Origin: Anadara kagoshimensis
Taxonomy: Eukaryota; Mollusca; Bivalvia; Arcoida; Arcidae
Direction: 5' to 3'
NCBI GenBank assembly: GCA_021292105.1
Contig: CM037870.1
Location: 4,387,058 to 4,451,057 of the forward strand
Length of the DNA: 64,000 bases
Shown in pieces: positions 19,112 through 57,399 of this stretch (position 1 is the stretch's first letter; each line of letters begins with the position of its first letter). The position numbers and the translations under genes were made by a program. The notes below the pieces were generated by a model that worked only from the letters and a program-made list of their open reading frames with translations, did no database searches and was not told where the DNA came from.

Positions 19112-20649
19112 TGCATGGAAATAAATTAAAATATGTGATCATTAAGAAACATTGAGTAAATGTACATTTAAAGTAGTTTCATTTCTCCCTGTCATTTTTG
19201 CCTTGATATATTTGCTGGAGAAATGACAGGTTGGTTTACTCTAAATTTATATTATGAATTACACAAGATTAGTCTTAATTTGTACTATCACGTACACAAG
19301 ATCTTTTAGAGGCAAGTGAAGAAGTTAATTCATTTATGAGTTTTGTTGAAGTGCCAGAAAAGATATTCTATTGCATTAATATTATTTTTATTTATAACAT
19401 CCATCGAGTGTAGAATAATGTGAAAATAAAAAACCACAAATGTCTTTCATTGAATAATCTCTTAAAGAGAATATAAAAGGTGCCAATATAAACGGATGAA
19501 AATCAGTAAATAAGTATTGTGTATGTTGAATTGAATAAATGTGTTATGTAAAAGCTTAATTTAATCGAGTGATTGGTTAACTTATTTAATATAATCAAGT
19601 TGTAAAAATGATAAAAAAGAAATATATTTGAAGTAATTAAATGGTGATAATTATTTAATTGAATTGTAAAAATGACGAACAAAAGAAAAAAACCATTTGA
19701 AATTAATTAAATTAATGTTCATATTTAATATGTCAGTTTTCTACATATTTTTTATAATATTATTAAGTTATTTTGTAGATTCAATAGAAATGCATGTAAA
19801 TTATAGAAAGTAGTGTTCAGTTAGTTTCTGTATAAATGCTATACAATATCAATGTTTCTTGAATATTTATGATGCTCAAACTTATAACATTCTTGCAAAA
19901 AGAGAATCGAGATGCATTTCCAGGTTTGAATTAAAATTTGTGCTGTAACTGATTAACAGGCCCTTTATAAATGCCAAGGTTATGACTTCTACTTAATATG
20001 TGCAAAAAAGATTGGCAATGGGAAGGCTACACCTTTGTTTCCATTTAAAAAAATATTTTTAAAAATGTCTTTTTTATTTACCTTGGATATGCATGTTATT
20101 TAAAACACATTTTGAAAAATATGCTGAAATGAGTGTGAAGACTGAACTTCAAGTTTTAACGCAAAACTGCTTTTTATATATTTTTAAAAATCATTAACAC
20201 TTAATCTTGTCCTGAAATTTTTACAATTTAAAAAAATTGAAATGGTATTGTGAAATGAATGGTTTTCGTATGCAAAAACAAAATTTTAAATTAGAGCACC
20301 TTAAAAACAAATGTAGCATGCATTAGAATTTTTAGCATTAATTTTAGTTAAGGTGATGGATGTCATTTTAATCTCTAAAATTGATTTTAAAAATTTATTG
20401 TATACAGTATTATTTAGATTTAAAAAATAATTTGTATAAACAATTGTAATTGAATTTCTTTATTTTGTTAATAAAACTTGTTGACCAAAATGGTTTTTTT
20501 TATTCTTTGAAACAACTAGGCCAAATTTGATATTTGGCAACTTCAGATTTTTGAAAGGGAAGAGGTTATGTCCCTTTAGGCTTCATGAAACTGGAAAATT
20601 TTCAAAAAAGTATAAGCCACTTCGGTAGCTCAGTAGGGGTCTAAACATT

Positions 20650-20813
20650 ACAGTCCAACCTGCCTTAAAGGCCACCTCTATATAAGGGCCACCTGCTTCT
20701 AAAGGCCAGTATAATGATACCCCATTGTTCTTTATCTATATTTTTAAAACCTGTATATAAAGGCCACTTTTACTTGTTTCCTTGGGTTGCCTATATAGAC
20801 AGGTTTGACTGTA
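20650..20813. mobile_element. TACAGTC-ended TIR element, copy 1
   Basis: Ends TACAGTCCAACCTG and CAGGTTTGACTGTA form inverted repeats. The interior consists of AAGGCCACC/TATATAAAGG words. It is preceded by a tRNA-like CACTTCGGTAGCTCAG head at about 20620. Counterparts are at 45148-45330 and 62914-63080. Confidence 0.65.
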
Positions 20814-21294
20814 CTTAAATACTGTAAATAAGTGATTGTTCTTTTGCCATGCACTGGACATTTAAAGTGAAAGTCACAGGGGTCCTTCAGAAGAGACTTT
20901 AGAACAATCCCTGCACATTGTTCTGAGCACACTGCAAAGGTAAAAGTTTCTGCCACTTCAACTTTAGCTGGTGACATCTTGATACAAGTAAAATATTCTT
21001 GACTGTGACATAAACCCATTAAACCAATCTAGCTTTCTTGTCTTTACTATTAAATTTGCACATGTACTTTTGTGCTCTAAAACTTGAAATAAATGTGAAA
21101 ATTCAATGAACCAACAATCTAGTAAGATCATAGTTCTTTGGTTTTTCCTGTAATCTTGTGGCATGTTCCCAAATGTTTTACCTCTTTCCAAGCAGATGTC
21201 GGTTGCATAGTGATCAATTACATGTTTAGTTTAATAAACAAGTATAGGTCAGTACACTGACCTGTCTGCTTTAGTTCAGGAAACTTGTCTACAG

Positions 21295-21665
21295 TCGAAC
21301 CTGCCTTTAAGTCCACCTCTATATAAGGGCCAGTAGAATTGTATCCCAATTGTTTTTTATTCATGTTATTTGAACCTGTATATAAAGGCCACTGGTTTCC
21401 ATGGGTGGTCTTTATAGACAGGTTTGACTATATAAAGGCCACTTTTACTGGTTTCCATGGGTGGTCTTTATAGACAGGTTTGACTGTATATAAAGGCCAC
21501 TTTTACTGGTTTCCATGGGTGGTCTTTATAGACAGGTTTGACTGTATATAAAGGCCACTTTTACCGGTGTCCATGAGTGGTCTTTATAGACAGGTTTGAC
21601 TGTATATAAAGGCCACTTTTACTAGTTTCCATGGGTGGTCTTTATAGACAGGTTTGACTGTATAT
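21295..21665. repeat. 58-bp minisatellite from the TACAGTC element, copy 1
   Basis: The word GACAGGTTTGACT occurs five times, with intact spacing of about 58 bp. The duplicate at 45790-46135 has four and that at 63510-63800 has three, so the array has changed length since duplication. Confidence 0.85.
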
Positions 21666-21899
21666 GGTACACAGGTGTTTATTTAGTCTGCATCATGGGG
21701 AAACATCAGTTGTTTATGTATAAACTGCAAATCCTGACACTACCCATGTACTGGATGGATCCTCCTATATTATTATTCTGAATGAAAGGTCAAGTGGACA
21801 GGTAGAGGTTTTTTACCTATATAATTTTGACAGTAATGTTGAGGTTATTACGGGTCCAACAATAATGTTTGTTGACCCTGTTTTTTTTAAAATGCCGAT

Positions 21900-23560
21900 T
21901 TTATTTCATTTCTGTCGAAACTATTCCAAACATTGGTCTTGTAATGAATGAATAATGAAAATTTATTTTCATGTAAAAATGCTTATCCAGTCAACATTTC
22001 CATTCACACCAGTTATTATTTTACACTTATTTTAAGGAAAAGTATTTCATTGCGTTAAGAAATGAAGAGAGCAACAAAATCACCATTTTAGAGAGGGGCA
22101 ACACAAATTATTGTTAGGCCTGTATATTCTATTTGTAAATGCTTACAGTATTATTGAAAGTTCCCTAATGTTATACTAGTACAATGCATTTATCATCGGA
22201 TCACTAGTTATTTTTGTCATGTGATAATTTTTTTTATAAAATAAGTATTAAAAAATTAGCATATGTAACCAGTTGTCATGTGATAATTTTTTAATACTTA
22301 TTTCATGAAAATTCAACACAGCACATATTTTATTGATCAAAAATATTTGACAGAAAATCTGTTTATTTACACATTTTATTGACACTGAAAATTACAGCCG
22401 AAGTTTAGTAGATTAACTGACCATTTTGCTCATTACAAATTATATAAACGTATAATACACAAATAAGTAGATACATTAAATTGCACCACTGAATAAAAAG
22501 GTGAATAAAACCGAGAATGCAAAATATTATGACATGCAAACGCAGACTGAAAACTGTTTATACAAAAGAATGTGACCACTAAACATCTGTCAAAGGATTA
22601 ACATTAATATCCAGTCATCTATAACTTGATTTAATTAACAGTAATGTTTTAAGCCCATCTAACAATTGAATTGAAAAATACACAAACAAATTAATTTATG
22701 CTAAACATTACAAAAACCTAAATGGTGTGATATTGGGTAACAATCGTGTAAAATGAAACTTAAGGGCTTTGGAATTTGAAAAAAAAAATTGGGTTATGCC
22801 CCCTTAAGCGTCATAAGGCTAAATATTATTACACAGAAAATCTCGATTTTATACAAAATGTTATTACAAATTACAAAAAAATTAAACTGTCATTATGCAT
22901 CACAGAAAAAACTAAATTTTATACAAAATTTTACCACAAATTACAGAAAAACTAAATTTTATACAAAATGTCACAAATTACACAAAAAATCCTAAATTAT
23001 GCATTAAACATTAAACTTATCTGAATATATTTCATCTTCAATTTAGAACACAAGTAACGACAATGTAAAGAAAATGTCTTTGTTTTGAAAAGCAATGCAA
23101 GCTCACTATCTATGCAAATATACAATAGCACAATACATGGTAAACATCATTTGGTATAATGATTTTTAAGATAGAGATTCTATATACTACACTTTACGAA
23201 TATAAAAAAAATACATTTATATATACTGTTTATATAGACATGTTTATGGATACTGTACAAAACAATGTAACTTTTTAAGGCCCAGCCACTTTTCTTTACA
23301 TGTATCCTCTGAAGTTGTATTATTCCTAAGTTCCGATATTGTAACATTTAACGAAGGCATTAGAAAATCATATTTTGGAAACCACAAGAGAAAAACTAAT
23401 TGTAAACTATCCAATCACCGAACACAACGTTGAACACCATTTTTGACCCTCTTCTTTCCTTGCTACTTTCGTTTGTTCTTTCTTGTTTTTGGTTACTCTA
23501 TGCAACTTGATATGGTGATATCAAATACCCATTATTTAATCGTATTAAGCTTTTTAGTGA
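21900..23560. other. AT-rich duplicated stretch without visible gene
   Basis: No exon-like sequence found. It contains a small direct repeat built on AAACTAAATTTTATACAAAA at 22835-22995, repeated in the duplicate at 47290-47425. It probably lies downstream of the Ig-gene terminal exon. Confidence 0.5.
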
Positions 23561-23789
23561 TTTTATCTGTATAGGCAGAGTGTTATATATTTATTCACTA
23601 TTGCAGTAAGGATTTTCTGTTGGCTGTAGGAGGTTGTTGTATGGCCTAAAATGAAGAATTTATGTGATTCTATTATATAAATGATTAGAAGGCATACAAG
23701 ATTTATGAAAGAGTTAAGAGGCAGCAAAAGAATAAGTAAAGTAATTGTCTTAAAAAGTACATATGGTAGCATAGAAAAGACCCTATTAC

Positions 23790-24260
23790 AGTCAAACCTG
23801 CATTAAAGGTCACCTCTATATAAGGGTCACCTGCTTATAAAGGCCAGTAGAATTGTATCCCCATTGTTTTATTCATATTGTTTGAGCCTGTATATAATGG
23901 TCACCTGCCCTTAAAAGTAACTTTTACTGGTTCCCCTGGGTGGCCTTTATAGACAGGCTTGACTGTATTATCATTATTAGTAGTAGTATAGGCAAACAAC
24001 TTTGACCTGTCCACTTGACCTTTTATTTAAATACTTATCACAGACCAAGTACATATATGTATATGCAGCACAGGTGTGTACAGTCCAACCTGCCTTAAAG
24101 GCCACCTCTATAAGGGCCACTTGGTTATAAAGACCAGTTAAATTGTATCCCAATTGTTCTTTATTTATATTATTTTAACCTGTATATAATGGTCACCTGA
24201 CCATTAAGGTCACGGTTTCTGGTTTCCTTGGGTGACCTTTATAGACAGATATGACTATTT
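23790..24260. mobile_element. Two further TACAGTC-type elements, copy 1
   Basis: One at about 23790-23970 begins ACAGTCAAACCTGCATT and ends CAGGCTTGACTGTA. A second at about 24078-24260 begins ACAGTCCAACCTGCC and ends GACAGATATGACTAT. Both recur at 48223-48406 and 48516-48690. Confidence 0.6.
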
Positions 24261-24809
24261 TGTATACATCATGGATCTTAACACTACCCATGTATAGGAT
24301 GGACCCTCCTATATGAATATTCTTATAAAAGGTCAAGCTGTCAGGTTAATGCTGTTTGCCTTTAGTTGTTGTTATTGCATATAACATAGTGACTAACTAA
24401 ATGGAAAGTGTTTTTTTCAGGTGTTTATCTTGATATCTTGATTTGCCAGTTTTGTAAGTTTTTACTAATCCTGGACCAGAACACTTGTGTTTGGATAATA
24501 TTTTGATGCCAAACTAATAGATCTAGATTTTGCACACAAATGCTAAACTCGGTAATCTTCTTTTGTAAAATTCAGACATAGAGGAATCCTTTTTTTTAAT
24601 TTTTTACCAGAGCAATGTAAATGCGTTTGTTAGTAAGTATATTCTTTCATGTTTACATATTTTTTTCCAGAAAAATCTTGTTAGATTATATAAAAACAGA
24701 GAAATACATGTATGTGAAAATGGGAGTAACAATGAATACTTAAGAAATTGGAATGTGCATAATATTGCCTTTGATATATAATGAAGATAATTATTAACTA
24801 GAAAAACTG

Positions 24810-25075
24810 TGAGCCATAAGTTCACAAAAATACCCCCGCTCACCCCACATAGAAAAATCCATCGGATCAAATTTTTAAATAAGAGGTGCACATCTACATT
24901 ATATCACAAAGATTGTGTGAAAATTTAATGAAAATCCATTGATGGGTTTAGGAGGAGTTGCGGATAAGAGATAGGTACCCTAAGGTGTAACGGAAGAAGG
25001 ACGAACGGACACACGGACGGACACCCCTATCACTAAATACCACCCCACTTTTTAAGCGGGGTAGGGGGTATAATA
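24810..25075. mobile_element. GGGGGTATA-ended dispersed element
   Basis: Begins around CTAGAAAAACTGTGAGCC, ends at the pentanucleotide-rich AGGGGGTATAATA. The interior has GGTACCCTAAGGTGTAACG and GGACACCCCTATCACTA. Related copies: 34285-34550 (opposite strand), 49180-49285 (internally deleted) and 54240-54475. Confidence 0.65.
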
Positions 25076-25299
25076 AACTACTTACAATTCAGCGTTTAGT
25101 TCTGTAAAATACAAACAATAAATAAATAAAAAATAATAATAATTAATATTAAAAAAATAGAATATGCATATAATCAATCAACAAAACCAACTGTAAAAAC
25201 ATTCCACGAGAATAATCATTAGAAACATGATTCAATCGCACAAATTACGCATGTTTTTAACATATCTGCTCAATTGTTTTACTAGTACATCAATGATTA

Positions 25300-25765
25300 C
25301 GATATGCAAGGAAGGCTACATTAGAAGATATGACAAACGCGATTGCTTTAATTTTTCAATCTTCAACTTTTCCTATTCTATGCAGCAATACGCCTGCCTC
25401 TGCTTATGGCGTATTTGCGCCACAGTTTATAGTACCTACTTCGGGAACTTTATACAACGAAACAAGGTGCTAACAAATAAATCGTTGTCTTGACAGGTTT
25501 ATATAGACATCAAAACGTCATCAGAATAGGATATTTGACGACGCATGGTTCCATGTTCCTTACTTTTCAATTTTAATTTTACACGTGGCAGATGTAGCTA
25601 GCTACACAGGCGGTATTTATTCTTCCAGAGCACCCAACATCATTTCACTGGTTTATCTTAATTTGTTAGTTTTCAAAGTTTTTACTTTGCTTTTTAGTTT
25701 GTTATTTGAATAGAGGTCGGTATGTTTGTTTTTGATCTGAACGTATCCCTACTAAACAACCCATT
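25300..25765 (+). mobile_element. Reverse-transcriptase retroelement remnant, copy 1
   Basis: Plus strand encodes remnants RRYDKRDCFNFSIFNFSYSM and FGNFIQRNKVLTNKSL, the C-terminal region of the RT ORF seen at 58370-58865, followed by the family's 3' tail ending GTATGTTTGTTTTTGAT. Duplicate at 49495-49965. No intact ORF. Confidence 0.6.
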
Positions 25766-26024
25766 TAAAACATGGACAAATAGAGCACAAGTAGTTTTGA
25801 ATATTCAAACCAGAATGAAATGTACATATAACTCGCCTCAATATTTATCAGACGGATGTATTTGAAGCAGTATGGCAAACGAAATCTCTTTATCTTTCTA
25901 TTGTCAACTTTTCTTTTTTGGATATGCATGTACACCCTTACTCTGCTTAATTGCTAAATTGTCTCATATTTCTACGCCCCTTTCATTCTCATACATGACT
26001 GCTGTATTTTGCTAAACATTCTTG

Positions 26025-26391
26025 CCCTTCCGAATACCCGACCTCACTTCCTCTAGTAGATGTTCACTTGTTTATTATAAAGTTTTATTCTTCTTTTTGG
26101 GATTGTGATTTGAAAATGGATCAGTATATACGACATAAATATATGAAATGTATTTCAGTGCATTGATGTTTTCATAGTGACCGACTTATTGATAATCTTA
26201 AATCCAATAGGAATAGTTTGTTAGCTTTTAATTTCAATTATCATGCACAATGCTGGTACATTTAATAAAAAAACTGACATATCAATTCAATGTTCAAATC
26301 ACAATCCAAAAGCAAAGTAAAAACTGGGAAACCAAGTTAAACACGTGAATTCAACCTGGGAAGTGAGGCAGGGTGCTCCGGAAGGGTAAGC
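26025..26391. mobile_element. Two opposed retroelement tails
   Basis: A plus-oriented tail (CCGACCTCACTTCCTC ... TTGGGATTGTGATTTG) at 26025-26127 and a minus-oriented tail at about 26290-26391 (AAAAGCAAAGTAAAAACT ... GGTGCTCCGGAAGGGTAAG). Same arrangement at 50265-50632. Confidence 0.55.
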
Positions 26392-26880
26392 CTCTCCTCC
26401 TTCTTAGGCTGCGCGACCTCCACTAAACTGAGCTAATAAGTATATGAAAACACTGAATAAAATTCTTACCAGCTACACGACAATTATTTTCATATATTCT
26501 TGGATTAATCTCCATGGACTGTCTAATTATTTCTTGTCTAAAAAAGAAAAAAAAAACAACATACCATCTTTTTAATGGCGTCGCATGGGCCCTGTGATGT
26601 TGATTGTTAAAATATTTTGTATACTTCTAGGTAATTCTGAGTATTGCTGAGTTTATGTTTTCAGTTACTACTTTTTTAATCATCATGTACAAACAAGAAT
26701 ATGAATGTTTGGTGCTTTGTTTTAAAGAAAAAAGAGATTGCAATACAGAACATCTTTTTCTTCAACAATGACTAGGATGCTGGTAACAAGTCTCTCATCT
26801 TCAACAACAAATTGTATATTGCTGCACAAAGTGTTAATAAAAATAGCAAAAACAACAGAACCAGATACTAATGCATAAGT

Positions 26881-26882
<2 letters not shown>

Positions 26883-26961
<79 letters not shown>
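26883..26961. repeat. (CA)n(TA)n microsatellite
   Basis: Compound CA then TA run inside the Ig-gene intron. The duplicate at 51118-51197 differs in run lengths. Reading frames across it are artefacts. Confidence 0.95.
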
Positions 26962-26966
<5 letters not shown>

Positions 26967-28767
26967 TCATCTTTTTTTCTTAAATTGAGATATTGTGATT
27001 GTATTAGGAAAGTACGTAACCTGCATTGTCACACAACATCAGTAGTATGTAAAATACTTACAATAACTGCATCTGGATATTTAGTGAAGTGGCTGCAAAA
27101 TGTAATTATATATATAAATTACTTTTTTAAAAAATAGAAAAGTATATAAACTATGAATGACATTGTTTATTGAGTAGTGCTTGGACAAAAATTGTGAAAC
27201 CAAAATTGTTTTCAAGACACTTAAAAAATACCAAAATAAACTATTATGGAATTCTAAAAATTTAAAATTAATTGATGGAAACATTAGAATTTATAGACAG
27301 ATTGAGGAGTCATTTTGGATTAAAAAGGGCGGTATTTAATCACTTTAGACAGGTGGACTTTATATATGTCATTATATAGTAAAATCCCTTGGGGATACTT
27401 CAGACCGGTTGCTATATACAGATGGACTTTATATAGAGGTGGAGTCTATAGCAGGTTATACTGTAGTACCTTTTGTATTCATCTTACCTAGTGTTCTCCA
27501 CTGCCGTAACCTTCTGTACACGATACAACCTACCAAAACTGTAACTAGTGATGCTAGTAAGAATGATGCAGTGATCACCGGCCAGTTGTTTTGTAGAAAT
27601 TGGATGATGGTGTCAGTTACTACAAAATGAAAAGGAGAGACATAATTTATACACTTTTTATATCGTTATGTGCTTAGGAAAAGACTTCGGTACTTTGAGA
27701 GGGATTATTTAGTGATATGTATTTGGAAATACTTTTTTAAAGATTTTCAGATACAGAAATTCATGGTATGTAATGCAAAATTCACCACAAGAATTCATTC
27801 ACTCAAAATACTAAAAAAATTAACTTAAATCATATAGATTCAAAACATAGCCACCAAAACATTTGGAACATTAAATTCACATATTTTGTTAAAACAAAAA
27901 CGCTTGGAAATTTAAGAAAACACTTTCAGAGTTTAATATGTTAATTAATTTTGGCGTCTTTATTGCAAATTGTTTTAATAGACACATTATTGATTAAACT
28001 ACATGTAGATGAACAACGATATTAAACTGGAGATGGTATTTGTTTCGTTATGCATGTTTGGAACTCTTTCTTGATATACGAACATATGTTTAAAAGAAAT
28101 TTTTGAAAACACACAGGAGGTAAATAATTCGAAAATGAGTACCCTTCCGGAGCACACGGACACAACCCCCTTGAATGTTTAAGTCTATAAAGTTTTTAAG
28201 TTGCTTTTAGGTCTGTATTTTGAACATGGATCGATATATTTGTGTTTGAAAAAAACAATCAAAAAGAAATTCCTATAAACGATGGAATATGGACAGTTTT
28301 TGTAATAAATGATGGATACATGTCTTTTATTCTATTTCAGGATTCTATCCACAACACTTGTTTTATAATCATCAATGCCAATTGATTATAAGAACTTACT
28401 CAGATTCTGTGTCGTGTCGTAGTCAATTATCAGACACATGTTTGTTGTTTGTCCATGCATTGTCTGTACATAGGTGAAATGACCAGCTGGGAATCCAAAA
28501 TCTTCTTTTAAACACTTTTGTAGCCATGGTATATTTGATGATGTATCGTTTGTACTATTTGTACAAGTTGTATTGAAAAGTCTAAAACTTATAATTTCGC
28601 TGCAATCTAATTCTATCGATGGGTTACCTAGGTTACAATATTATTATTTATTATTTGTTGCAACATTAAATTGATTTACATGTTATAATTTTAGCATAAG
28701 TCTGCGTCTAAAATAAAAAAGTGCAGTCATAATATAAATTGGGTATGTCATATGTCTAGCTAAAGAG

Positions 28768-29107
28768 GAGTTGCTTACCCTTCCGGAGCACCCGGCCTCA
28801 CTTCCCTGGTGGAAGTTCACGTGTCTAACCTAACTTGTCAGTTCCAAAGTTTTTACTTTGCTTCTGGACTGTGATTCGGACATAGATTAGTATGTTTGTT
28901 TTTGATCATATACCTTTTTTAAGAAAATAAATGAATGCATTCAAACAATGGTATATGAACTGTTTATTAAACAACATCTTGAATAAAAGTAACAGTTAAA
29001 TGAAGCAATATGCATTTGTCAGCGCAAACATACCCATAGTTTAAATTACAAGCTTAAAAGCAAAGTAAAAACTGCAAAATAAAGTTATACACGTCAACTT
29101 TTACCAC
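28768..29107. mobile_element. Opposed retroelement tails ending at inversion breakpoint
   Basis: A plus tail at 28768-28908 (CCGGAGCACCCGGCCTCAC ... TATGTTTGTTTTTGAT) and a minus tail at 29040-29107 that stops mid-motif after TTTTACCACAG. In the duplicate (53100-53200) the same minus tail continues with GGTCAAGTGCACCGGAAG, so the break at about 29107 falls inside this tail. Confidence 0.6.
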
Positions 29108-29272
29108 AGTATTATATATATTTTTGTTTAGAATATAACACAAAATGTTACATGAATGTTGTCAAGTACATATCAGGATTAAATTCGTGGGTTTGTTTTT
29201 CTTTAACAATTCCTCTTGTAGTAATACAATTACCTCTTTAAGTTAGGATGTATGACTAGCTGTAATGATATA

Positions 29273-30272
29273 CTGTGAAATCATTAATTTTCGTTGGGGC
29301 TCAATTTTCGTGGTTTTCGTGGACAGTCTGAACCACGAATTTACGACCACCACGAAATATTATCCACAAGTAAAAAGACAAGATAACTACCCGGTAATGA
29401 ACATGTGCCATATTTAATCGCATTCATAAATTACAACTAGCGTAACTCACATTTTCACACCAATAAAAACTTTATAGGAGGTGAAGATGTTTGGAATGTT
29501 TGATAAATAAATATTTATATTTAAAAAAGTTTATTTTTAATTGGGAACTGGTCGGGATGAATAGGGACAGACAGGTTTCTAGCCGTAGCTTTCATCATCA
29601 GTTATGGCCTGTCTCATTTAAATTCAAATTTGATTAACTAAATAAACATTTCAACAATCTATCAACTAACCTCCATTATATTTAATATAACTAAATCAAC
29701 AGTTTGTCTTGTAAAAACCGCACCTTCTTTCAACATTATACAGTATCGGTAAGAGCCGCCATCGTTACTCTCGTAAACAGCTGATTGGGTCATCAGAGGT
29801 CAATAATTAGAATTTTTAAAAAGTTGCCGTTATCAAAGAAAATAACAACTAATTTGCTTAAAGGGAATATGAACCATATTCTGATTGATGTGATATGAGT
29901 GAACTTATAAATCTGAATTAATTGCCGCTAAATTATCTTATGTAACAGGTAGATTTACTCAGGCCAGGTGTCACGTTGTGTATGAAGTCAATTGTTACTA
30001 CTAATCACAGGTAATCACAGTCGCCTACCCTAGACTTGGTCATTAATCCGCGTCTCTAAATCTGTCACGGTCTATGGCTTTGGTAATCCCTAATTACTCA
30101 TCCTATAACTGCCGATTAACAAACAAATCATCGCTTTCTACCCGTTATCAATGTTCAAAGGACAAACTAGTTTTTAACATTTCAGTAAAACCACGAATTT
30201 ACGTCCCAACGAAATGTTATTTTTTACCGATTCCACGAAAATTGGGACCCACGAAAATAAAACCATTCACAG
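29273..30272. mobile_element. 1,000-bp TIR element with TA target-site duplication
   Basis: Ends read CTGTGAAATCATTAATTTTC and, from the other side, CTGTGAATGGTTTTATTTTC; inverted-repeat similarity runs about 43 bp. TA flanks both ends (29271-29272, 30273-30274). The duplicate arm at 57221-57230 has the uninterrupted site GATATAATTG with a single TA, which proves the insertion. No transposase ORF; a non-autonomous Tc1/mariner-like element is inferred from the TA duplication. Confidence 0.85.
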
Positions 30273-30360
30273 TAATTGAATTACTATATGTTGTACTAAT
30301 ATAAAATACATGTTGAAGTTATAAAGCAGTATATATGGTGTTTGAACAACAATGTATGTT

Positions 30361-30585
30361 CAACATAAGTGAGTTTGAATCCAGACCGTGTCTGACCAAA
30401 AATTGATACTAGTTAATGAATACTTTTTTCGCCAAGCACTCCGCATTTAGACATGGAAGTTGCGGGTTTCTTCGCTAGAATCCTATAAAACAGATGGTCA
30501 CGCAGGCTTGGCACGTAAAAACCCTCCCTACACTGCGAAAATTTCTGCTTCTCTAACTATAGCCACTGACTCTCGATATAAGTAA
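30361..30585. repeat. SINE, left part (interrupted by hammerhead array)
   Basis: A B-box-like AGTTTGAATCCAGACC at the left and CTCGATATAAGT at the right. The tail continues after the array with AATATTCTTTAGTGGCACG to about 31610. The duplicate at 56885-57130 has the tail uninterrupted. Confidence 0.6.
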
Positions 30586-30613
30586 TTGCATATTATATCA
30601 GTTTTAATTTTAC

Positions 30614-30659
30614 AGCACTAGACGGCCGTTTCGGAATACAATTCCTCATCAGTAGTGCT
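30614..30659 (-). ncRNA. Type I hammerhead ribozyme, unit 1
   Basis: Minus strand in order: stem I AGCACTA; core CTGATGA; stem II GGAAT with loop TGT and ATTCC; core GAAA; very short stem III CGGCC with GTC; stem I partner TAGTGCT, fully complementary over 7 bp. Predicted cleavage is after the C of GTC, between positions 30621 and 30620. Stem III is only about 2-3 bp with a tiny loop, a feature of Penelope/retrozyme hammerheads, which work better as dimers. Confidence 0.92.
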
Positions 30660-30952
30660 TGGACCAAAATTATGTAACCAAAATTATTTTGAAGATGTTG
30701 AAAAGCTACCCAAAGGACCAAAATATATTTTACCAAATTAAGCTAAGGAAATACTTTGCATGAGGGAGTATACCTTAGTTTTTGAGAAATTGCAAATTTT
30801 AACTTGCAGGAAATTTAGACAATTACAGTATATTTCTGACAATAATACGAAATTATTGCCCACTGAGTTAGTAATATCCTCGGGGCACCAGCCACCAGCA
30901 GAGATATCGGCCCAGGGGTTTAAATTACATATTATACCAGTTTTAATTTTAC

Positions 30953-30998
30953 AGCACTAGACGGCCGTTTCGGAATACAATTCCTCATCAGTAGTACT
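30953..30998 (-). ncRNA. Type I hammerhead ribozyme, unit 2
   Basis: Identical core and stem II to unit 1. One substitution in stem I (AGTACTA instead of AGCACTA) becomes a U-G wobble against TAGTGCT, so pairing is kept. Predicted cleavage between 30960 and 30959. Confidence 0.9.
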
Positions 30999-31290
30999 TG
31001 GACCAAAATTATGTAACCAAAATTATTTTGAGGTGTTGAAAAGCTACCCAAAGGACCAAAATATATTTTACCAAATTAAGCTAAGGAAATACTTTGCATG
31101 AGGGAGTATACCTTAGTTTTTGAGAAATTGCAAATTTTAACTTGCAGGAAATTTAGACAATTACAGTATATTTCTGACAATAATACGAAATTATTGCCTA
31201 CTGAGTTAGTGATATCCTCGGGGCACCAGCCACCAGCAGAGATATCGGTTCAGGGGTTTAAATTACATATTATACCAGTTTTAATTTTAC

Positions 31291-31336
31291 AGCACTAGAC
31301 GGCCGTTTCGGAATACAATTCCTCATCAGTAGTGCT
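31291..31336 (-). ncRNA. Type I hammerhead ribozyme, unit 3
   Basis: Same 46 nt as unit 1 without change. Predicted cleavage between 31298 and 31297. The unit is truncated distal to the motif. Confidence 0.92.
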
Positions 31337-31612
31337 TGGACCAAAATTATGTAACCAAAATTATTTTGAAGATGTTGAAAAGCTACCCAAAGGACCAAAA
31401 TATATTTTACCAAATTAAGCTAAGGAAATACTTTGCATGAGGGAGTATACCTTAGTTTTTGAGAAATTGCAAATTTTAACTTGCAGGAAATTTAGACAAT
31501 TACAGTATATTTCTGACAATAATACGAAATTATTGCCTACTGAGTTAGTGATATACTCGGGGCACCAGCCACAAAAATATTCTTTAGTGGCACGTAAAGC
31601 CCCATTCAATCA

Positions 31613-31785
31613 GTTCCGGAAGGGTAACCATCTCCTTTTTATCTAGCTACACCCGCCACGTGTGAAATCCAAATTGTGTGAAAGGAACATGGAACTATGG
31701 GACATCAAATATACCCAGGTCAATCCTGGACACAAAGAAATCAAACTTATCAACAATACTGTGATGACGGCAATAAAACTTTAGA
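31613..31785 (-). mobile_element. RT-element C-terminal fragment and tail (arm A)
   Basis: Minus-strand reading gives the end of the RT ORF (KF-like start, then ...HHSIVDKFD... as at 56690-56750) and the ACGTGGCGGGTGTAGCTAG untranslated part. It is the inverted counterpart of 56680-56855. Confidence 0.6.
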
Positions 31786-33119
31786 ATTAAACAATTCAAA
31801 AATAAAATTTGTTCAATTAACTTATGATTATACAATTTGTATATGTACCCTTTGGAAAAAACTAATTACGTTCAGCTTAAAGCAGGAAATGTGTCACATA
31901 ATGAGGAACTTTAAATTATCATGATGGTGAGGAAAACGTGCAATCATGAATTTTAATTGGAGATATATATATATACATGTACATGGGCTAAAATATCAGA
32001 GTGAAAAATGGATCTACAGAAAATGAATATACTTGTATTTGTCGTCCTTGTAATAAGAATTAATGGTATAATTTAGTTTAATTATTTCATCAAAATCCTT
32101 TTATTTTTTTATAATATTCGTAATTTGGTTATTTTCTATTAAGATTTACGTATAATTTTCAATTTACCAAAACTTTCCAGCACATTTCATACAAAACATT
32201 TTAACAAAGCTATGATAATAATTGGGCAAAACATCTTTGTTCATAAAACATTTGTTTTTAAGAGAAATTTAAAGTTCACTAAGCAGAAATGGCGTATCGT
32301 TATTTGCTCTTATAATGTTATAGAAATCTTTTGAATTTAACTTTATAAGCTACTCAAAGGGAACAGCATCACATGTAACGATAGATTACATGATGATGAT
32401 GATTTAAGTTGCAGCCCCATTTAAAGTCTTCATACGTCCCAGGAACGAGGTTGTTGTTCACGAATATCAGGATCTAGAAGTTGAGTGTAAACTCGATCAA
32501 AGGATAATCACAGTTTGAATTGGAATGTTATCTTGGAACTTTCAAATGTCGTTTAGTTGATCTCGATAGTTTTGACAACCCTTTCTGTGATCACAACTTT
32601 TTCACGTATATGTTTACTAAAACAAAATACAAGACTAGCTGTAATAAAAGAACTAATAGCATTAAGCTGATATTATATAATGTTTCTCCAACAAAACATG
32701 GTGCTAAAATTAGATGTACTTTATGGATATATAGAACTCCATATGAAGATACAACAACAATATATGTTCAAGGTAATACCAAATTATAATATTTTGATCG
32801 CGGTGTAATATACTCAACAACAAAGTTAAGGACAATAGAAAAATTTGAAATAAAAATTCAAAATCTGAAAAATGTTAAATCCATGTGTATTTTTATTCTT
32901 ATTCTTTCATTGCTCAAATAGTGTTATGAAGTAATTTTTGTGCATGAATTTAAATCTGTCTAATGAAATTATGAGGAGTGTGAATATGATATGATATGAT
33001 TTTCGTTTTACAAAATTAAATAATGTTTTTGATGTGGTCTTTAACATTCTTGTTGGGTATATTTGAAAATACTTGTAATTATGCTATAGAATATTTAATT
33101 AGGTACCTTATACATTAAA

Positions 33120-33430
33120 CAGTTGTTTCAGAATGGGCCATGTTTTTAAAAATAAAGATCTAATTTTCACACAGTGATAGATAGCAAAACGGCCAAATTT
33201 AAATTTCACGCCATGAAGTGTTGTAGGGTCTGCTGAATATGATTGAGCCAAAAATTTTGTAATTAAAGCAAACTTGCATCAAGCTCACACTTGACCTTTC
33301 TTACTGATTGCATGCGCAGTGTGAAGATATTTTTATTTTTATAAATAAGCGATCAGTTCTGGGATGGCGGCGAAAACCGGAAAACCTAAAGAAATTAAAT
33401 GATTTTTGGCAAGAGAATTCACAAAGCTTC
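33120..33430. other. Segment absent from the duplicate arm
   Basis: Between GGTACCTTA and the AGTAATCTGTAACCCGG shared with 55290-55325, arm A has about 350 bp with no counterpart in arm B. It has no ORF; with the SINE remnant at its right end it is either an insertion here or a deletion in B. Confidence 0.5.
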
Positions 33431-33520
33431 TCAAAGTAGGGTCTGCCCGAGTCGGATTCGAACCTTGGTATTGAGACGCACAGTAATCTGTAACCCGGTG
33501 CTTAAGACAGGGGCTTCCAA
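33425..33520 (-). repeat. tRNA-like SINE fragment
   Basis: Minus strand carries a perfect B box GGTTCGAATCC within ACCAAGGTTCGAATCCGACT and, about 40 nt upstream, GCACCGGGTTACAG in place of an A box. The T arm does not fold as a tRNA, so it is not called a tRNA gene. The duplicate at 55270-55310 keeps only the left part. Confidence 0.4.
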
Positions 33521-34055
33521 AGACTAAAAAGGAAAAAATACTGATGGTTATACAGTAGAACTCTGATAGCTCCTTGGCACTTCAGCAAAATGTTCGAGCC
33601 ATCGGTGGTCATCTGATGTTTATGAAATAAAACCATTTAGTACCATCTCTTTCATTTGTATCTGTTGTTCACCTTTGTTTATTTCTTGTGTACGATATTT
33701 TGTTCGCTGTTCATTGAGCTAAGATTGTTAAAGGCTATTGAAACAAAGCAGAAAAATACATGCATTATAAATTTCAAAATGAACTAATGACTAATGACGA
33801 AAATACCCTATTACCTTTAAAGCTTAATTTTATAGACATATCTAATTTTAATAAAGAATTATTTATTTATTTATTTCATATACCTATTAATCTATTTAAA
33901 ATGCACATTTTTAATATTAAAGTATAATTGAATATTCAATTTTAAATAAATTGTAGAATAATACTCAACAAAATAACTTGCGCTACAGAAAATATTTAGG
34001 TGAAAAAGACTATAGAGAAATGTTAAATGTGTACCTGGCATCACTGCCCTTGTTT

Positions 34056-34138
34056 AGCCTAATTTGTCAGTTCCAAAGTTTTTACTTTGCTTCTGGATTG
34101 TGATTCGGACATGGATTAGTATGTTTGTTTTTGATTGT
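34056..34138 (+). mobile_element. Retroelement 3' tail
   Basis: TTGTCAGTTCCAAAGTTTTT through GATTAGTATGTTTGTTTTTG. Its counterpart in the inverted arm is at 54615-54700. Confidence 0.6.
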
Positions 34139-34284
34139 CAAAACAGCAGCTCATCTTCGCCTCGTGGTTAGCCATGTTGGCTAAGTGGGAAAAGGAAATT
34201 TTAAAATGTTAGCTAAGTGGGAATATCAAGTACATTTATGCGTCGTTATGGGATTAAGAGATTAATACCTTTTCTCAATTATTT

Positions 34285-34550
34285 TTTATACCCCCCGCTT
34301 AAAAAGTTGGGGGTATATAGTGATAGGGGTGTCTGTTCGTCCTTCCGTTACACCTTAGGGTACCTATCTCTTATCCGTAACTCCTCCTAAACCCTTCAAT
34401 GGATTTTCATGAAACTTTCACAAAATCTTGGTGATATAATGTAGATGTGCACCTCCTATTTAAAAATTTGATCCGATGGATTTTTTTATGTGGGGGAGCG
34501 GGGGCATTTTTGTTAGCTTGTGACTCACAGTTTTTCTAGTTATTCTTATA
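34285..34550 (-). mobile_element. GGGGGTATA-ended dispersed element
   Basis: Reverse orientation of the element at 24810-25075, starting TATACCCCCCGC and ending CAGTTTTTCTAG, in the intron between Ig1 and Ig2 of gene A. The same insertion is present at 54240-54475, so it predates the duplication. Confidence 0.65.
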
Positions 34551-35634
34551 GTTTATTACATGTAAAATTCACTAGTAACACTCATCATTAATTATTTCGT
34601 TTCGCTTTATTACTTTCGACAAAGCCTGTATCATGGTTTCAGTTTGTGTTTTTGCTTACAAATAATGACTGGCTACATGTCAAACTGACAAATATTGTAT
34701 TTGAGGGAAATAAGTTCAATTATCACTAAACTTAGACCTTTGAGTAATATCAACAAAATAACGGGTGAAGTTGTGCTTTTTAGCTTTATTTTGCGTTTTT
34801 ACAATTCATTCATTGTTTCATTTTTAATCAAAACCAATGCACATAACCTGTTATAAAATATTGAAATATTTATATACTAGTACATTGTATTCAATTTTTG
34901 TTATTTGTAGTTCCAGTAAAAGCAGTTACTATTAGCAACATACAAAACAGATTGAAGCCCGGAGGGGGTCAACTGTTCCTAGTAGAATGTAAGACATCTC
35001 CTAGTCGACCAGCAGCAGAGATACAATGGAGTATTCTGAGGCCAGAAAATGGAGATCAGATTCCTTTGATTGAGAGTTCTGTAACTAAAGATTTAGACAA
35101 TGAATCCGGTTTCTGGTCAACAAAATCGTATATGAATATGAATTTTTCCACTGATTGTAAAGAGAGTTATCAGACAATAGTTTGTGAAGCTTTAGACAGT
35201 TCTTCAGATGTCAATCCTAATGCGACACTCGACATTACATGTGAGAATAATTCAAAAATAGGTACATATCTGAATATTTGTTTGAATTATTTTACGCATT
35301 TCATTTAATTCCTTAAATATCCTTGTAATTTGCAAAGTTTTATGTCGCTGGGTGTAGTTATGTATGAGAGAGAGAGTATTTACCATACGATGTAGTGCAT
35401 TGCTTGCTGAAACAGATGCTGGTCACAATGATGAATAGTAACAGCGCGGTAATAATGGCTGTTATTAGTATCCACTTTTTATTTGTGGTCAGCCATTTAT
35501 TAGTAACAGTAACCATAGTCATCGTTACTATTATAGGCCTTGGTGTAGTTTTAGTCGGTCCACGGGATGTAGGTCTAGTCGTTGTGCTATGTGGAACTGT
35601 GCAAGCTGTTAAAACATAGCATCTTGTCAATCAT

Positions 35635-41854: not shown

Positions 41855-43567
41855 CATCTAACCCTGGGAAATATTTTGGCATATAACATGGGGGAAACAA
41901 TTTAACTACATATACTACGTATATAATTAGATTTTCCATTAATGACATATGTGCCATGGAAATTATGGATAAAAAAATTATTTCACAGCTACTAACAAGC
42001 GGCTATACATTCAAGTACCTATCATTGCTAACAAAAAATCACAGGAGATAGATCGATCCGATTCATTGTAAAAATATCGTCAATGTGATGCGTCAAAAGT
42101 CCAGTGGGCTTAACGCCTGTCTTGTTGACTGAAGGGTTCTATCCTGGTCCGAATCTGATATATATCTGGCAAAATGTCTATAGTATTAATGTCATGGTAA
42201 GGAAGAATAGCATTTAAACAAAGACATTATGTTGTTACATACCTACGATGGTTAATGTTTCTTTAGCTTCAAGTCTACACTTAAGTAAACTTTATTTTAA
42301 CGTTTGATCAAATTACACCGATTAGACCAAGCTACGTTAACAAAATGGTGATCAGATTTGTATTAATTCTCTCTTCTCTCTTGTACAATGGATACGTATA
42401 GTAATATTCATAACGACCTCGAGAAAAAATGTATTCTATACTAGATCAATTGGGTTTCAAATTTTTCACTTTGGTCAGTTCTTGCTACAACAAACTTACC
42501 ATGAACATAAATAGTTGTAGTATCTTTGTTTATTTCCTCGTGTATTCTTAAAATGCAGCCAATTTCAGCACCATGTTTTGTTGAAGAAACATTATACACT
42601 TTCAGCTTAATGCTATTTGTACTTTTATTACAACTAGTTATGAACACTGTCTTAGTAATGTTATCGGTAGTAACATTGTGACTACAAAATCTAGGTTCAA
42701 ATCTCCCGAAAGAAATTAAAGAAACATCTGAAAGCTCCAAAATGACATTCCAATTCAAACTGTGATCTGTTCTAATCCTTTGATCAAGTTTACACTCAAC
42801 TTCTAGATCCTGATATTCTTAAACATCAACTACGTTCCTAGGATGTATATGGACCTCAAATATTGCTGCAACTTTTAATTGAAGTATAACCATAATTTTA
42901 TTTTATTTTCATAGCATTTTTATTGATATGATTAGTATGAAATGTGTTTGAATTTTTTTGGTAAACTAAAAATTCCTTGTAATTTATATTAAAAAATAAA
43001 ACCTAATTGATATTATGAGTTACGAATTTTTTTATTTTTATAAAATAAGAAAATTATACCACTGAGAAATTAAAGCATGTAGTTCTTTTTGGAGGCATGT
43101 TTATTTTGCTTTTAAAAGCAAATGTATTGCTCAGTTAATTCTATAGTTTTACTGATATGTTTAGTATTGTTTTAGCAAACTAAAAATGCTTGGAAATCTA
43201 AATTAAAAAAATAAAAATAAAACCAAATTATGAATACTTTCAAAATTAAAAGTATTTATTCTTATAATAAAGTAAATTATACCATTTATTCTTATTGCAA
43301 GGAGAGCAAATGCAAATATACTCATGTTCTGTGTATCCCCCTTTCACTCTGGTGTTTTGACTAATATACAGCCGTCTTTCACTCTAGTACTTTGTCAATG
43401 TAGAGCCGTAGGACTTTGTTCTATATGTATATAGTGCTACAATATATGGGACATCAAATACTTCCGGGATAATTTTTAATACAGAGACATCATTCTTATC
43501 AACGATATTGCAAAACGTCGATTTTGAAGACGGCCAAAAATGTTTTGAGAGCCTTTATGAATATTTT
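41855..43567. repeat. Direct duplication block D
   Basis: Homologous to 59455-61327 in the same orientation, beginning CATCTAACCCTGGGAAATAT. It carries a signal exon and an Ig1 exon, and abuts the 10-kb duplicated block at 43568. Confidence 0.9.
42500..43325 (-). pseudogene. Ig-family gene D: signal and Ig1 exons, nonsense in Ig1
   Basis: Signal exon 43283-43325 (43 nt, MSIFAFALLAIRING) is intact, with a GTATAA donor. Ig1 exon 42500-42871 (372 nt) is in frame except for TAA at 42819-42821 where relatives have CAA (VVVQEYQD becomes VVDV-stop-EYQD). The rest reads LNWNVILELSDVSLISFG... to TTTIYVHG. No Ig2 or membrane exon follows before gene C. The nonsense change is a single substitution, so it is unlikely to be a homopolymer assembly error. 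Confidence 0.75.
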
Positions 43568-45789
43568 GCATGGAAATAAATTAAAATATTTGATCATTAA
43601 GAAACATTGAGTAAATGTATATACATTTAAAGTAGTTTCATTTCTTCCTGTCATTTTTGCCTAGATATATTTGCTAGAGAAATGACAGGTTAATTTAGTC
43701 TAAATTTGTATTATGAATTACACAAGATTAGTCTTAATTTGTACTATCACGTACACAAGATCTTTTAGAGACAAGTGAAGAAGTTAATTCATTTATGAGT
43801 TTTGTTGAAGTGCCAGGAGCAATGTATATCTAGAAAAGATATACTATTGCATTAATATTATTTTTATTTATTTCATCCATCGAGTGTAGAATAATGTGAA
43901 AATAAAAAACCACAAATATCTTTCATTGAATAATCTCTTAAAGAGAATATAAAAGGTGCCAATATAAACGGATGCAAATGAAAATCAGTAAATAAGTATT
44001 GTGTATGTTGAATTGAATAAATGTGTTTTGTAAAAGCTTTAATTTAATGAGTGATTGGTTAATTTATTTAATTTAATCAAGTTGTAAAAATGATAAAAAA
44101 GAAATATATTTGTAGTAATTAAATGGTTGATAATTTATTTAATTGAATTGTAAAAATGACAAACAAAAGAAAGAAACATTTGAAGTTAATTAAATTAATG
44201 TTCATATTTAATATGTCAGTTTTCTACAAATTTTTTATAATATTATTAAGTTATTTTGTAGATTCAATAGAAATGCATGTAAATTATAGAAAGTAGTGTT
44301 CAGTTAGTTTCTGTATAAATGCTATACAATATCAATGTTTCTTGAATATTTATGATGCTCAAACTTATAACATTCTTGCAAAAAGATAATCGAGATGTAT
44401 TTCCAGGTTTGAATTAAAATTTGTGCTGTAACTGATTAATAGGCCCTTTTTAAATGCCAAGGTTATGACTTATACTTAATATGTGCAAAAAAGATTGGCA
44501 GTGGGAAGGCTACACCTTTGTTTCCATTTAAAAAAATATTTTTAAAAAATGTCTTTTTTTAATTTACCTTGGATGTCTGTTTTTAAATATGCATGTTATT
44601 TAAAACACATTTTGAAAAATATGCTGAAATGAGTGTGAAGACTGAACTTCAAGTTTTAACACAAAACTGCTTTTTATATATTTTCAAAAATCATTAACAC
44701 TTAATCTTGTCCTGATTTTTCAATTTAAAAAAATTAAAATGGTATTTTGAAATGAATGATTTTCGTACGCAAAAAGAAATTTTAAATTAGAGCACCTTAA
44801 AAAGAAATGTAGCATGCATTAGAATTTTTAGCATTAATTTTAGTTAAGGTGATGGATGTCATTTTAATCTCTAAAATTGATTTTAAAAATTTATTGTATT
44901 ACAGTATTTTTAAGATATACAAAATAATTTGTATAAACAATTGTAATTGAATTTCTTTATTTTGTTAATAAAACTTGTTGACCAAAATGTAATTTTTTTA
45001 TTCTTTGAAATAACTAGGCCAAATTTTGATATTTGGCAACTTCAGATTTTTGAAAGGGAAGAAGTTATGTCCCTTTAAGCTTCATGAAACTGGGAAATTT
45101 TCAAAAAATATAAGCCACTTCGGTAGCTCAGTTGGGGTCTGTTATTACGGTCCAACCTGCCTTAAAGGCCACCTCTATATAAGGGCCACCTGCTTCTAAA
45201 GGCCAGTATAATGATACCCCTATTGTTCTTTATCTATATTATTAGAACCTGTATATAAAGGCCACCTGCCCATAAAAGCCACTTTTACTTGTTCCCTTGG
45301 GTTGCCTTTATAGACAGGGCTGACTGTACTTAAAAATAAGTAAGTGATTGTTCTTTCGCCATGCACTAGGCATTTAAAGTAAAGGTCACAGGGGTCCTTC
45401 AGAAGAGACTTTAGAACAATCCCTGCACATTGTCCTGAGCACACTGCAAGGTAAAAGTTTCTGCCACTTCAACTTTAGCTGGTGACATCTTGATACAAGT
45501 AAAATATTCTTGACTGTGACATTAAACCAATCTAGCTTTCTTGTCTTTACTACTAAACTTGCACATGTACTTTTGTGCTCTAAAACTTGAAAAAGATGTG
45601 AAAAATTCAATGGACCAACAATCTAGTAAGATCATAGTTCTTTGGTTTTCCTGTAATCTTGTGTCATGTTCCCAAATGTTTTACCTCTTTCCAAGCAGAT
45701 GTCGGTTGGATAGTGATCAATTACAAACAAGTATAGGTAACAACATTGACCTGTCTGCTAAGTTCAGGAAAATTGTCTACAGCCGCATC

Positions 45790-46135
45790 TGCCTTTAAGT
45801 CTATCTCTGTATAAGGGCCTTCTGCATATAAAGGCTAGTAGAATTGTATCCCAATTGTTTTTATTCATGTTATTTGAACCTGTATACAAAGGTTACTTTT
45901 ACTGGTTTCCATAGGTGGTCTTTATAGACAGGTTTGACTATACCACCTGTATATAAAGGCCACTTTACTGGTTTCCATGGGTGGTCTTTATAGACGGGTT
46001 TGACTGTACCATTTGTATATAAACGCCACTTTTACTGGTTTCCATAGGTGGTCTTTATAGACAGGTTTGACTGTATATAAAGGCCACTTTTACTAGTTTC
46101 CATGGGTGGTCTTTATAGACAGGTTTGACTGTATA
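45790..46135. repeat. 58-bp minisatellite, copy 2
   Basis: Four units ending GACAGGTTTGACT (one GACGGGTTTGACT), two of them separated by an extra TACCACCTG/TACCATTTG spacer not seen in copy 1. Confidence 0.8.
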
Positions 46136-51000: not shown

Positions 51001-51117
51001 AATGACTAGGATGCTGGTAACAAGTCTCTCATCTTCAACAACAAATTGTATATTGCTGCACAAAGTGTTAATAAAAATAGCAAAAACAACAGAACCAGAT
51101 ACTAATGCATAAGTTAA

Positions 51118-51199
<82 letters not shown>

Positions 51200-56448: not shown

Positions 56449-56679
56449 GTTCTGTAGATCCATTTGTCACTCTGATATTTTAGTCCATGTACATGTATAT
56501 ATATATCTCCAATTAAAATTCTTGATTGCACGTTTTCTTCAACATCATGATAATTTAAATTTCCTCATTATGTGACATATTTCCTGCTTTAAGCTGAACG
56601 CAATTAGTTTTATTCCAAAGGTTACATATACAAAGTGTTTAATCATATGTTAATTGAACAAATATTCTTTTTGAATTGT

Positions 56680-56855
56680 TTAATTCTTAAGTTTTATGAC
56701 CGTCATCACAGTATTGTTGATAAGTTTGATTTCTTTGTGTCCATGATTGACCTGGGTATATTTGATGTCCCATACTTCCATGTTACTTTCACACAATTTT
56801 GATTACACACGTGGCGGGTGTAGCTACTAAAAGGAGGTGCTTACCCTTCCGGAAC
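56680..56855 (+). mobile_element. RT-element C-terminal fragment (arm B)
   Basis: Plus strand reads KFYDRHHSIVDKFDFFVS-like remnants followed by the ACACGTGGCGGGTGTAGC tail, then breaks at CCGGAACTGATTG into SINE sequence. Confidence 0.6.
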
Positions 56856-57399
56856 TGATTGAATGGGGCTTTAAGTGCCACTAAAGAATATTTCACTTAT
56901 ATCGACAGTCAGTGGCTATAGATGACGTAGCAGAAATTTTTCGCAGTGCTTTAGGGCAATTGTGTAGGGAGGGTTTTTACGTGCAAAGCCTGCCATGATA
57001 CAGACCATCTGTTTAATAGGTATCTAGCGAAGAAACACGCAACTTTCATTTCTAAATGCAGAGTGCTTAGCGAAAAAAAAATTCATTACCTAGTATCATG
57101 TCTTGGTCAGACACGGTCAGGATTCGAACTAACTTATGTTGAACACGCATTGTTGTACAAAATCATATAAACTGCTTTTTAACTTCAACATACATTTTAT
57201 ATCAGTGCAACATTTAAATTCAATTATATCATTACAGCTAGTCATACAGCCTAACTTTAAGAGGTAATTGTATTACTACAAGAGAATTGTTAAAGAAAAT
57301 TAAAAAAAAACTCAAGAATTTAATCCTGATATGTACCTGACAACATTCATGTAACATTTTGTGTTATATTCTAAACAAAAATATACTGAAGGAGATGTT

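Follow-up and report, generated by a model that had tools for sequence, protein, structure and literature searches.

Animal non-LTR retrozymes are described, in the excerpts of Cervera & de la Pena (2020; PMC7229834) used here, as non-coding tandem units of 170–400 nt that carry type I hammerheads, have a GC content below 50% and occur in many copies. According to the same excerpts, the units of mussels measure about 350–390 bp, number about 5000 and are missing most of the conserved loop 1–loop 2 nucleotides, and the target duplications of retrozymes, when present, are longer than 4 bp. The excerpts also cover the hammerhead repeats of newt and axolotl, which are about 330 nt long, have a stem III of one base pair with a palindromic tetraloop and are reported to cleave better as dimers. 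As to the route by which animal retrozymes return into DNA, the excerpts of PMC7229834 and PMC7761336 propose Penelope-like elements as their helpers, as candidates only.

For one Penelope-like element, the excerpts of Frangieh (2024; PMC11167929) report that synthesis starts internally, past the ribozyme cut, and that mutants of the ribozyme had no effect on insertion in vitro. Genomic copies of hammerhead-bearing Penelope-like elements can show a tail of 30–40 bp according to the same source. A further group of small bivalve repeats is represented by biv-TRIM, which the portion of PMC6934838 used here describes as miniature LTR-type elements with terminal direct repeats whose loci are mostly fragments and sometimes tandem.

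The hammerhead array and its insertion site

The window, that is, the whole 64-kb stretch of DNA that was analysed, corresponds to C14:4387058-4451057 of a 1.115-Gb genome. Three minus-strand hammerheads, 338–339 bp apart, had been predicted in it, and a sequence check and unit alignment reproduced both their letters and their cut positions exactly. The motifs are of type I and are located on the minus strand of 30584–31572, where they read AGCACTA / CTGATGA / GGAAT-TGT-ATTCC / GAAA / CGGCCG-TC / TAGTGCT. This gives a 7-bp stem I, CUGAUGA, a 5-bp stem II with a UGU loop, and GAAA. Stem III consists of one base pair closed by a palindromic GGCC loop, and the cut is predicted after GUC. Stem I of unit 2 reads AGTACTA and, as had also been predicted, this change is a single U-G wobble that keeps the pairing. 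The cuts would fall at 31298/31297, 30960/30959 and 30621/30620, delimiting units of 338 and 339 nt.

The same interval was reported by TRF as a tandem array (30584–31572; period 338, 2.9 copies, 98%). In RNA order, the insertion comprises unit positions 65–338, a full 338-nt unit, a full 339-nt unit and positions 1–37. The array thus begins at an arbitrary unit position and ends 37 nt past a cut site. The features of the locus are as follows.

30584..31572, minus strand (RNA sense): whole retrozyme insertion of 989 bp, with a 5'-truncated first unit, two full units and a 37-nt tail (TRF, alignment, empty site)
31298..31572, minus strand: first unit in RNA order, 5'-truncated (unit positions 65–338), ending at the first cut site (unit alignment)
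30960..31297, minus strand: full unit of 338 nt, cut site to cut site (unit alignment)
30621..30959, minus strand: full unit of 339 nt, cut site to cut site (unit alignment)
30584..30620, minus strand: 3'-terminal tail, 37 nt past the last cut site, which is the common 3' end of the family (alignment across loci)
31291..31336, minus strand: type I hammerhead, predicted cut 31298/31297 (letters, sub-threshold Rfam match, descriptor)
30953..30998, minus strand: type I hammerhead, stem I containing the U-G wobble, predicted cut 30960/30959 (letters, sub-threshold Rfam match, descriptor)
30614..30659, minus strand: type I hammerhead, predicted cut 30621/30620 (letters, sub-threshold Rfam match, descriptor)
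56840..56970, plus strand: paralogous empty site, an inverted duplicate of the flanks, with the insertion point between 56894 and 56895 (flank alignment)

The window was scanned on both strands with our own type I descriptor (stem I of at least 4 bp, stem II of at least 3 bp and stem III of at least 1 bp). Exactly three motifs were found in the 64 kb, compared with a mean of 0.01 and a maximum of 1 in 100 dinucleotide shuffles. Meanwhile, the simple pattern CTGATGA..GAAA matched six times, with 1.46 matches expected, and three of the six were the motifs of the array. The unit has a GC content of 34.6%, and the longest stop-free stretch in concatenated units is 72 aa. The retrozyme unit is non-coding, so it is not itself a Penelope-like element.

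Both flanks of the array recur in the window in inverted orientation and without the array, 30273–30533 corresponding to 57226–56962 and 31575–32379 to 56893–56101. The joined flanks align with this empty site through the insertion point, apart from one substituted and one additional base at the junction, and the comparison revealed no target duplication at the insertion.

Segmental duplications, direct and inverted, cover window positions 19112–35365, 43567–57226 and 61328–64000, and are mostly about 91–96% identical. A Pfam search with 10 ORFs of the window returned only ORC-lid and Ig-like matches, the weak C2-set_2 immunoglobulin-like matches belonging to paralogous ORFs at 34898–35305 (plus strand) and 53485–53886 (minus strand). 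At 2995–3545, a 42-bp repeat is present in 13 copies that are 98% alike; its minus strand is open for 187 aa and has no Pfam match.

Predicted hammerhead fold and size of the family

The Rfam search of the window gave no match at the gathering score. With an E-value setting, the Hammerhead_1 model matched unit 2 at 26.1 bits (E 0.0009) and each of the other two units at 17.9 bits (E 0.46), all below the gathering score of 34. The original prediction had named a covariance score below threshold as a result that would speak against it, and this is literally the result obtained. In our judgement, the sub-threshold Rfam score is outweighed by the descriptor result and the genome-wide counts given below.

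The minimum-energy fold of the isolated 48-mer was not the hammerhead, which has −8.9 kcal/mol against −13.4 kcal/mol for the best structure. When two strands of the motif were folded together, the minimum-energy structure was a double hammerhead whose palindromic stem III measures 8 bp, and its energy was −36.7 kcal/mol compared with twice −13.4 kcal/mol for the single strands. It should be noted that this energy gain is unexceptional, as it was matched by 59 of 300 shuffles for units 1 and 3 and by 78 of 300 for unit 2. If tandem transcripts were cut as dimers, the monomer circle, which has one motif, would be spared. The monomer circle was not unusually structured in comparison with 100 shuffles (z −0.38 for the circular and −0.41 for the linear fold); high self-pairing of the circular RNA is a usual but not a defining trait of retrozymes. 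Among 37 hammerheads, one pair was doubly changed, which is no better than in shuffles, and covariation gave no support because the copies are too alike. The conservation of the hammerhead region was not clearly better than that of the rest of the unit (p 0.08).

The size of the family was estimated by counting unit patterns in the genome with up to two mismatches. The tail pattern (unit positions 12–36) was found 16,752 times, the ribozyme core pattern (308–339) 11,103 times, the pattern of positions 180–204 9,437 times, that of positions 41–65 2,543 times, and that of positions 25–49, which crosses the common 3' end, 2,602 times; the reversed control gave 0 in every case. The exact catalytic core, with stem II and loop III left free, had 8,160 matches in the genome and 1 in the reversed control. 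As predicted by 5' truncation, the counts drop with growing distance from the 3' end (16,752 > 11,103 > 9,437 > 2,543), although they are also influenced by pattern length and divergence, and the last of them takes in a periodic array on contig C2. The 2,602 matches across position 38 indicate that roughly 84% of the tails are terminal, and the two counts put the number of insertions at about 14,000.

The copies are dispersed over many contigs, and selected copies diverge from the consensus by 2.4% on average. The retrozyme family is thus large and fairly young. The proposed search for other units therefore succeeded, tandem arrays being among the copies found, and the lack of tandem copies elsewhere in the genome that would have contradicted the original prediction was not observed. 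The array in the window is one copy of a dispersed, non-coding, AT-rich family with a 338-nt unit, which forms short tandem arrays and has thousands of copies. Together with the minimal type I hammerhead, these features bear out the view that the element is retrozyme-like.

On C2, at about 10.77–10.88 and 12.20 Mb, the sequence of unit positions 41–65 recurs, often every 148–149 bp, as if a part of the retrozyme had turned into a satellite.

Ends of the copies, their template and the enzyme

The ends of the insertions were analysed in 40 loci, comprising all merged places of the genome search with the best-scoring full-length matches and including the locus of the window. They represent 39 independent loci, since L034 and L049 share both flanks, and the sample is biased to full-length, similar copies. 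In all 40, the 3' end was at unit position 35–43, that is, 35–43 nt past the predicted ribozyme cut. After re-anchoring, the common sequence ended at about TGTAAT(T)(T), at position 36–38, and the flanks beyond it looked unrelated.

The second sample, not chosen by length, consisted of 16 of 100 listed core-pattern places from the first 3.02 Mb of contig C1, array members and some neighbours being left out. Thirteen of its 3' ends were at position 35–41, two, with the same flank, at 27 and one at 19; two flank-sharing pairs reduce the sample to 14 independent ends, 12 of them at 35–41. The match to the unit stayed within one lap in 15 of the 16 copies. Meanwhile, the 5' ends were scattered over the unit in both samples. 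Two pairs of copies (L093/L095 and L096/L098) have identical ends and identical first bases of the 3' flank, and were probably copied later inside larger duplications.

Target duplications were sought in the flanks of the 40 loci. The longest common flank words had a mean length of 4.08, compared with 4.09 in mismatched pairs, and words of at least 6 were found in 2 of the 40 loci compared with 9.9% in the control; no target duplication was thus detected above control. No poly(A) was seen at the 3' junctions of the copies.

The common 3' end bears on two explanations that do without a retrozyme, both of which we regard as very improbable. Ordinary satellite DNA spread by unequal crossing-over, with a hammerhead-like fold arising by chance, would account for tandem repeats and for the C2 array that contains part of the unit. 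It would leave unexplained that the copies are dispersed on many contigs and, in the sample not chosen by length, mostly consist of less than one unit plus the tail, that their 3' ends coincide and a clean empty site exists, and that the exact catalytic core is retained at 8,160 places against one in the control. Satellite expansion was rejected on the fixed insertion ends and on the occurrence of copies outside tandem arrays. The terminal direct repeats of a miniature LTR (TRIM-like) element could likewise mimic tandem units: copies of just over one lap show direct repeats at both ends, and bivalve TRIM loci too are mostly fragments and sometimes tandem in the portion of PMC6934838 used here. 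Against this, the 5' ends scatter while the 3' ends are fixed, and the search for target duplications was negative. An LTR insertion is fixed at both of its ends and is flanked by a short duplication, and an LTR or TRIM origin was rejected on the lack of both.

Target-primed reverse transcription characteristically gives a fixed start and scattered ends. The tails of the 40 loci extend past the ribozyme cut site and are contiguous across the cut junction. This excludes a linear cut monomer as the template; the RNA was either re-joined into a circle or uncut. We conclude that the array probably is a retrozyme of the animal non-LTR kind that arose when junction-intact RNA was copied in a target-primed-type reaction. 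This confidence applies to the retrozyme and to junction-intact copying, and extends neither to the circle nor to the enzyme. The data bear on the origin of the array and not on transcription of this locus, which had been put forward as a source of 338-nt circRNA.

The copies span anything between a partial lap and about five laps (L057), the longest being 1,703 nt, and lengths above one unit need either several laps or a multimer. In the 40-locus sample, from which shorter copies are absent by the choice of loci, 18 copies fell into the 362–428 nt bin, compared with 0–4 in each of the equally wide bins after it, and 6 were at least 900 nt long; at the 5' end of the L040 chain, a 23-nt piece is doubtful. 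We treat the excess of 5' ends just past one lap (one lap plus about 25–90 nt) as a lead only.

The template would most simply be a circle. The same retroelement could also have been copied from an uncut linear multimer transcript, with the ribozyme playing no role in integration. Such a template fits the contiguous cut junction equally and would leave most of the signatures of a circle. To distinguish between the two, 55 units were compared, and their mean divergence was 2.3% within arrays (22 pairs) and 4.5% between arrays (1,463 pairs). The units of some arrays hardly differ (L029, 0.3%; L022, 0.3–1.0%), whereas those of others differ as much as units of unrelated arrays (L055, 3.5–5.3%; L025, 4.4%). 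The heterogeneous arrays are in favour of the multimer, and the roughly halved divergence within arrays and the uniform ones speak against it, although this argument is of low power, since a donor array could itself be uniform. On balance, the similarity of units leans to one monomer per array, and we consider the uncut multimer doubtful.

The search for an enzyme was directed at GIY-YIG elements. Of 248 candidate places in the genome, 150 were scored, and 148 were over the family cut-off. Among five frames tested, those of L066 and L077 hold a reverse transcriptase and GIY-YIG over the cut-off in one frame. L079:1-2343 has an open frame of 781 aa in which the order seen in L066 and L077 is inverted, GIY-YIG preceding the reverse transcriptase; both matches are just under the cut-off. 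Only GIY-YIG was seen in L068 and L080, within the stretch examined.

A hammerhead-like motif (CTGATGA...GAAAC..GTC) is carried by the L064–L066 family; in the L064 copy, its presumed cut would fall about 71 nt before the end. By eye the motif in L064 and L065 is hammerhead-like but unpaired at the base of stem II, and it was rejected by both the strict and the relaxed descriptor. Among the matches listed for the L064 3' query, 41 other places match through the motif and stop at 433–453, 26 of them at 443. The element's own end lies inside this query, as it does in the L080 query, so the other copies reach or diverge at that point and are not proven to end there. The layout of L064 and L065, a motif followed by a tail, is like that of the retrozyme; the sequence is not. 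In L064 and L065, near 2739–2842, the reverse transcriptase/GIY-YIG element occurs in tandem rows (1,961–1,962 bp apart, on C16) and in inverted pairs.

The 3' sequence of the retrozyme was not found in Penelope-like elements, either among five sets of 3' ends or in a comparison of the unit with 24 loci around GIY-YIG hits, which together cover some of the families. A retrozyme at L080:789-1094, 274 bp past a GIY-YIG element that ends at L080:515, was initially taken as the 3' end of that element. This link was rejected, as 39 other listed copies (40 scored of 439 candidates) part from the query at 205–233, before the retrozyme, and we regard the latter as having inserted independently. Near L063 and L077, pieces of the retrozyme run opposite to the element there. 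The 3' UTR of the GIY-YIG family at L080:1-515 is 96–100% identical in 39 other listed places, several of them head-to-head inverted pairs, and this family looks recently active.

That none of the GIY-YIG elements examined in these two comparisons shares the 3' end of the retrozyme would suit a LINE or another non-LTR enzyme as the mobiliser. Such an enzyme fits less well with the lack of target duplication above control and of poly(A) at the 3' junctions. In addition, the fixed end past the hammerhead resembles the internal start and tail of Penelope-like elements in the excerpts of PMC11167929, and also the motif and tail of L064 and L065, although their motif fails the descriptor. We therefore regard a mobiliser other than a Penelope-like element as unlikely, and a Penelope-like element as the probable helper.

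In the cycle that we propose, the tandem array would be transcribed from the minus strand, and the hammerheads would cut the transcript to 338-nt monomers, probably in pairs because stem III is a single base pair with a palindromic GGCC loop. A host RNA ligase would close the monomers into circles. A reverse transcriptase from another element, most likely a GIY-YIG Penelope-like one, would nick the DNA, and copying would begin at a fixed internal site 36–38 nt downstream of the healed cut site. The enzyme would circle the template, usually dropping off in the first lap and sometimes completing several. The resulting insertions would be 5'-truncated or tandem, would all share one 3' end and would lack a target duplication. 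That animal retrozymes in general integrate by such rolling-circle target-primed reverse transcription, with a Penelope-type enzyme starting internally on circular RNA a few dozen nucleotides past the healed junction and usually making less than one lap, is a tentative proposal to which we give somewhat less than even confidence. If it is true, the genomic copies record the use of a circular RNA template, and the excess just past one lap is the point where the enzyme must displace its own first strand.

Comparison with known systems

The closest likeness is to animal non-LTR retrozymes, with which the array shares the type I hammerhead, tandem units of 338–339 nt (about 150–450 bp is usual), a GC content below 50%, the lack of coding capacity and the dispersed copies. 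It shows the tested marks of this class except for the duplication, which was not found, and the highly self-paired, stable circle (z −0.38). In comparison with the retrozymes in the excerpts of PMC7229834, the family has a common 3' end 36–38 nt past the cut, shows no target duplications and, in one sample, consists mostly of 5'-truncated copies. None of the literature searched, as far as the excerpts of it extend, was found to describe retrozymes with a fixed 3' end.

The newt and axolotl repeats of PMC7229834 share the unit length of about 330 nt and the one-base-pair stem III with a palindromic tetraloop; their motif, as the excerpts present it, has conserved loop 1–loop 2 contacts, whereas stem I here is a plain 7-bp helix. 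Common to biv-TRIM, as described in the portion of PMC6934838 used, are the small repeat, the many mostly partial copies and the occasional tandem arrays. The family is set apart from it, by description only, through one fixed and one variable end and the hammerhead.

Penelope-like elements, in the excerpts of PMC11167929, share the type I hammerhead, the tandem or partial-tandem copies, the internal start past the cut and the short genomic tail. Unlike them, the retrozyme encodes no protein (neither reverse transcriptase nor GIY-YIG), and it has no common 3' sequence with those examined. The possible advance is mechanistic: the ends suggest that junction-intact RNA was copied from an internal site in a target-primed manner. 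The question of integration becomes testable in this family, whose copies number more than ten thousand, end sharply at one 3' position and form a measurable gradient, and for which a clean empty site is available. It is a known kind, an animal non-LTR retrozyme, with unusually clear ends.
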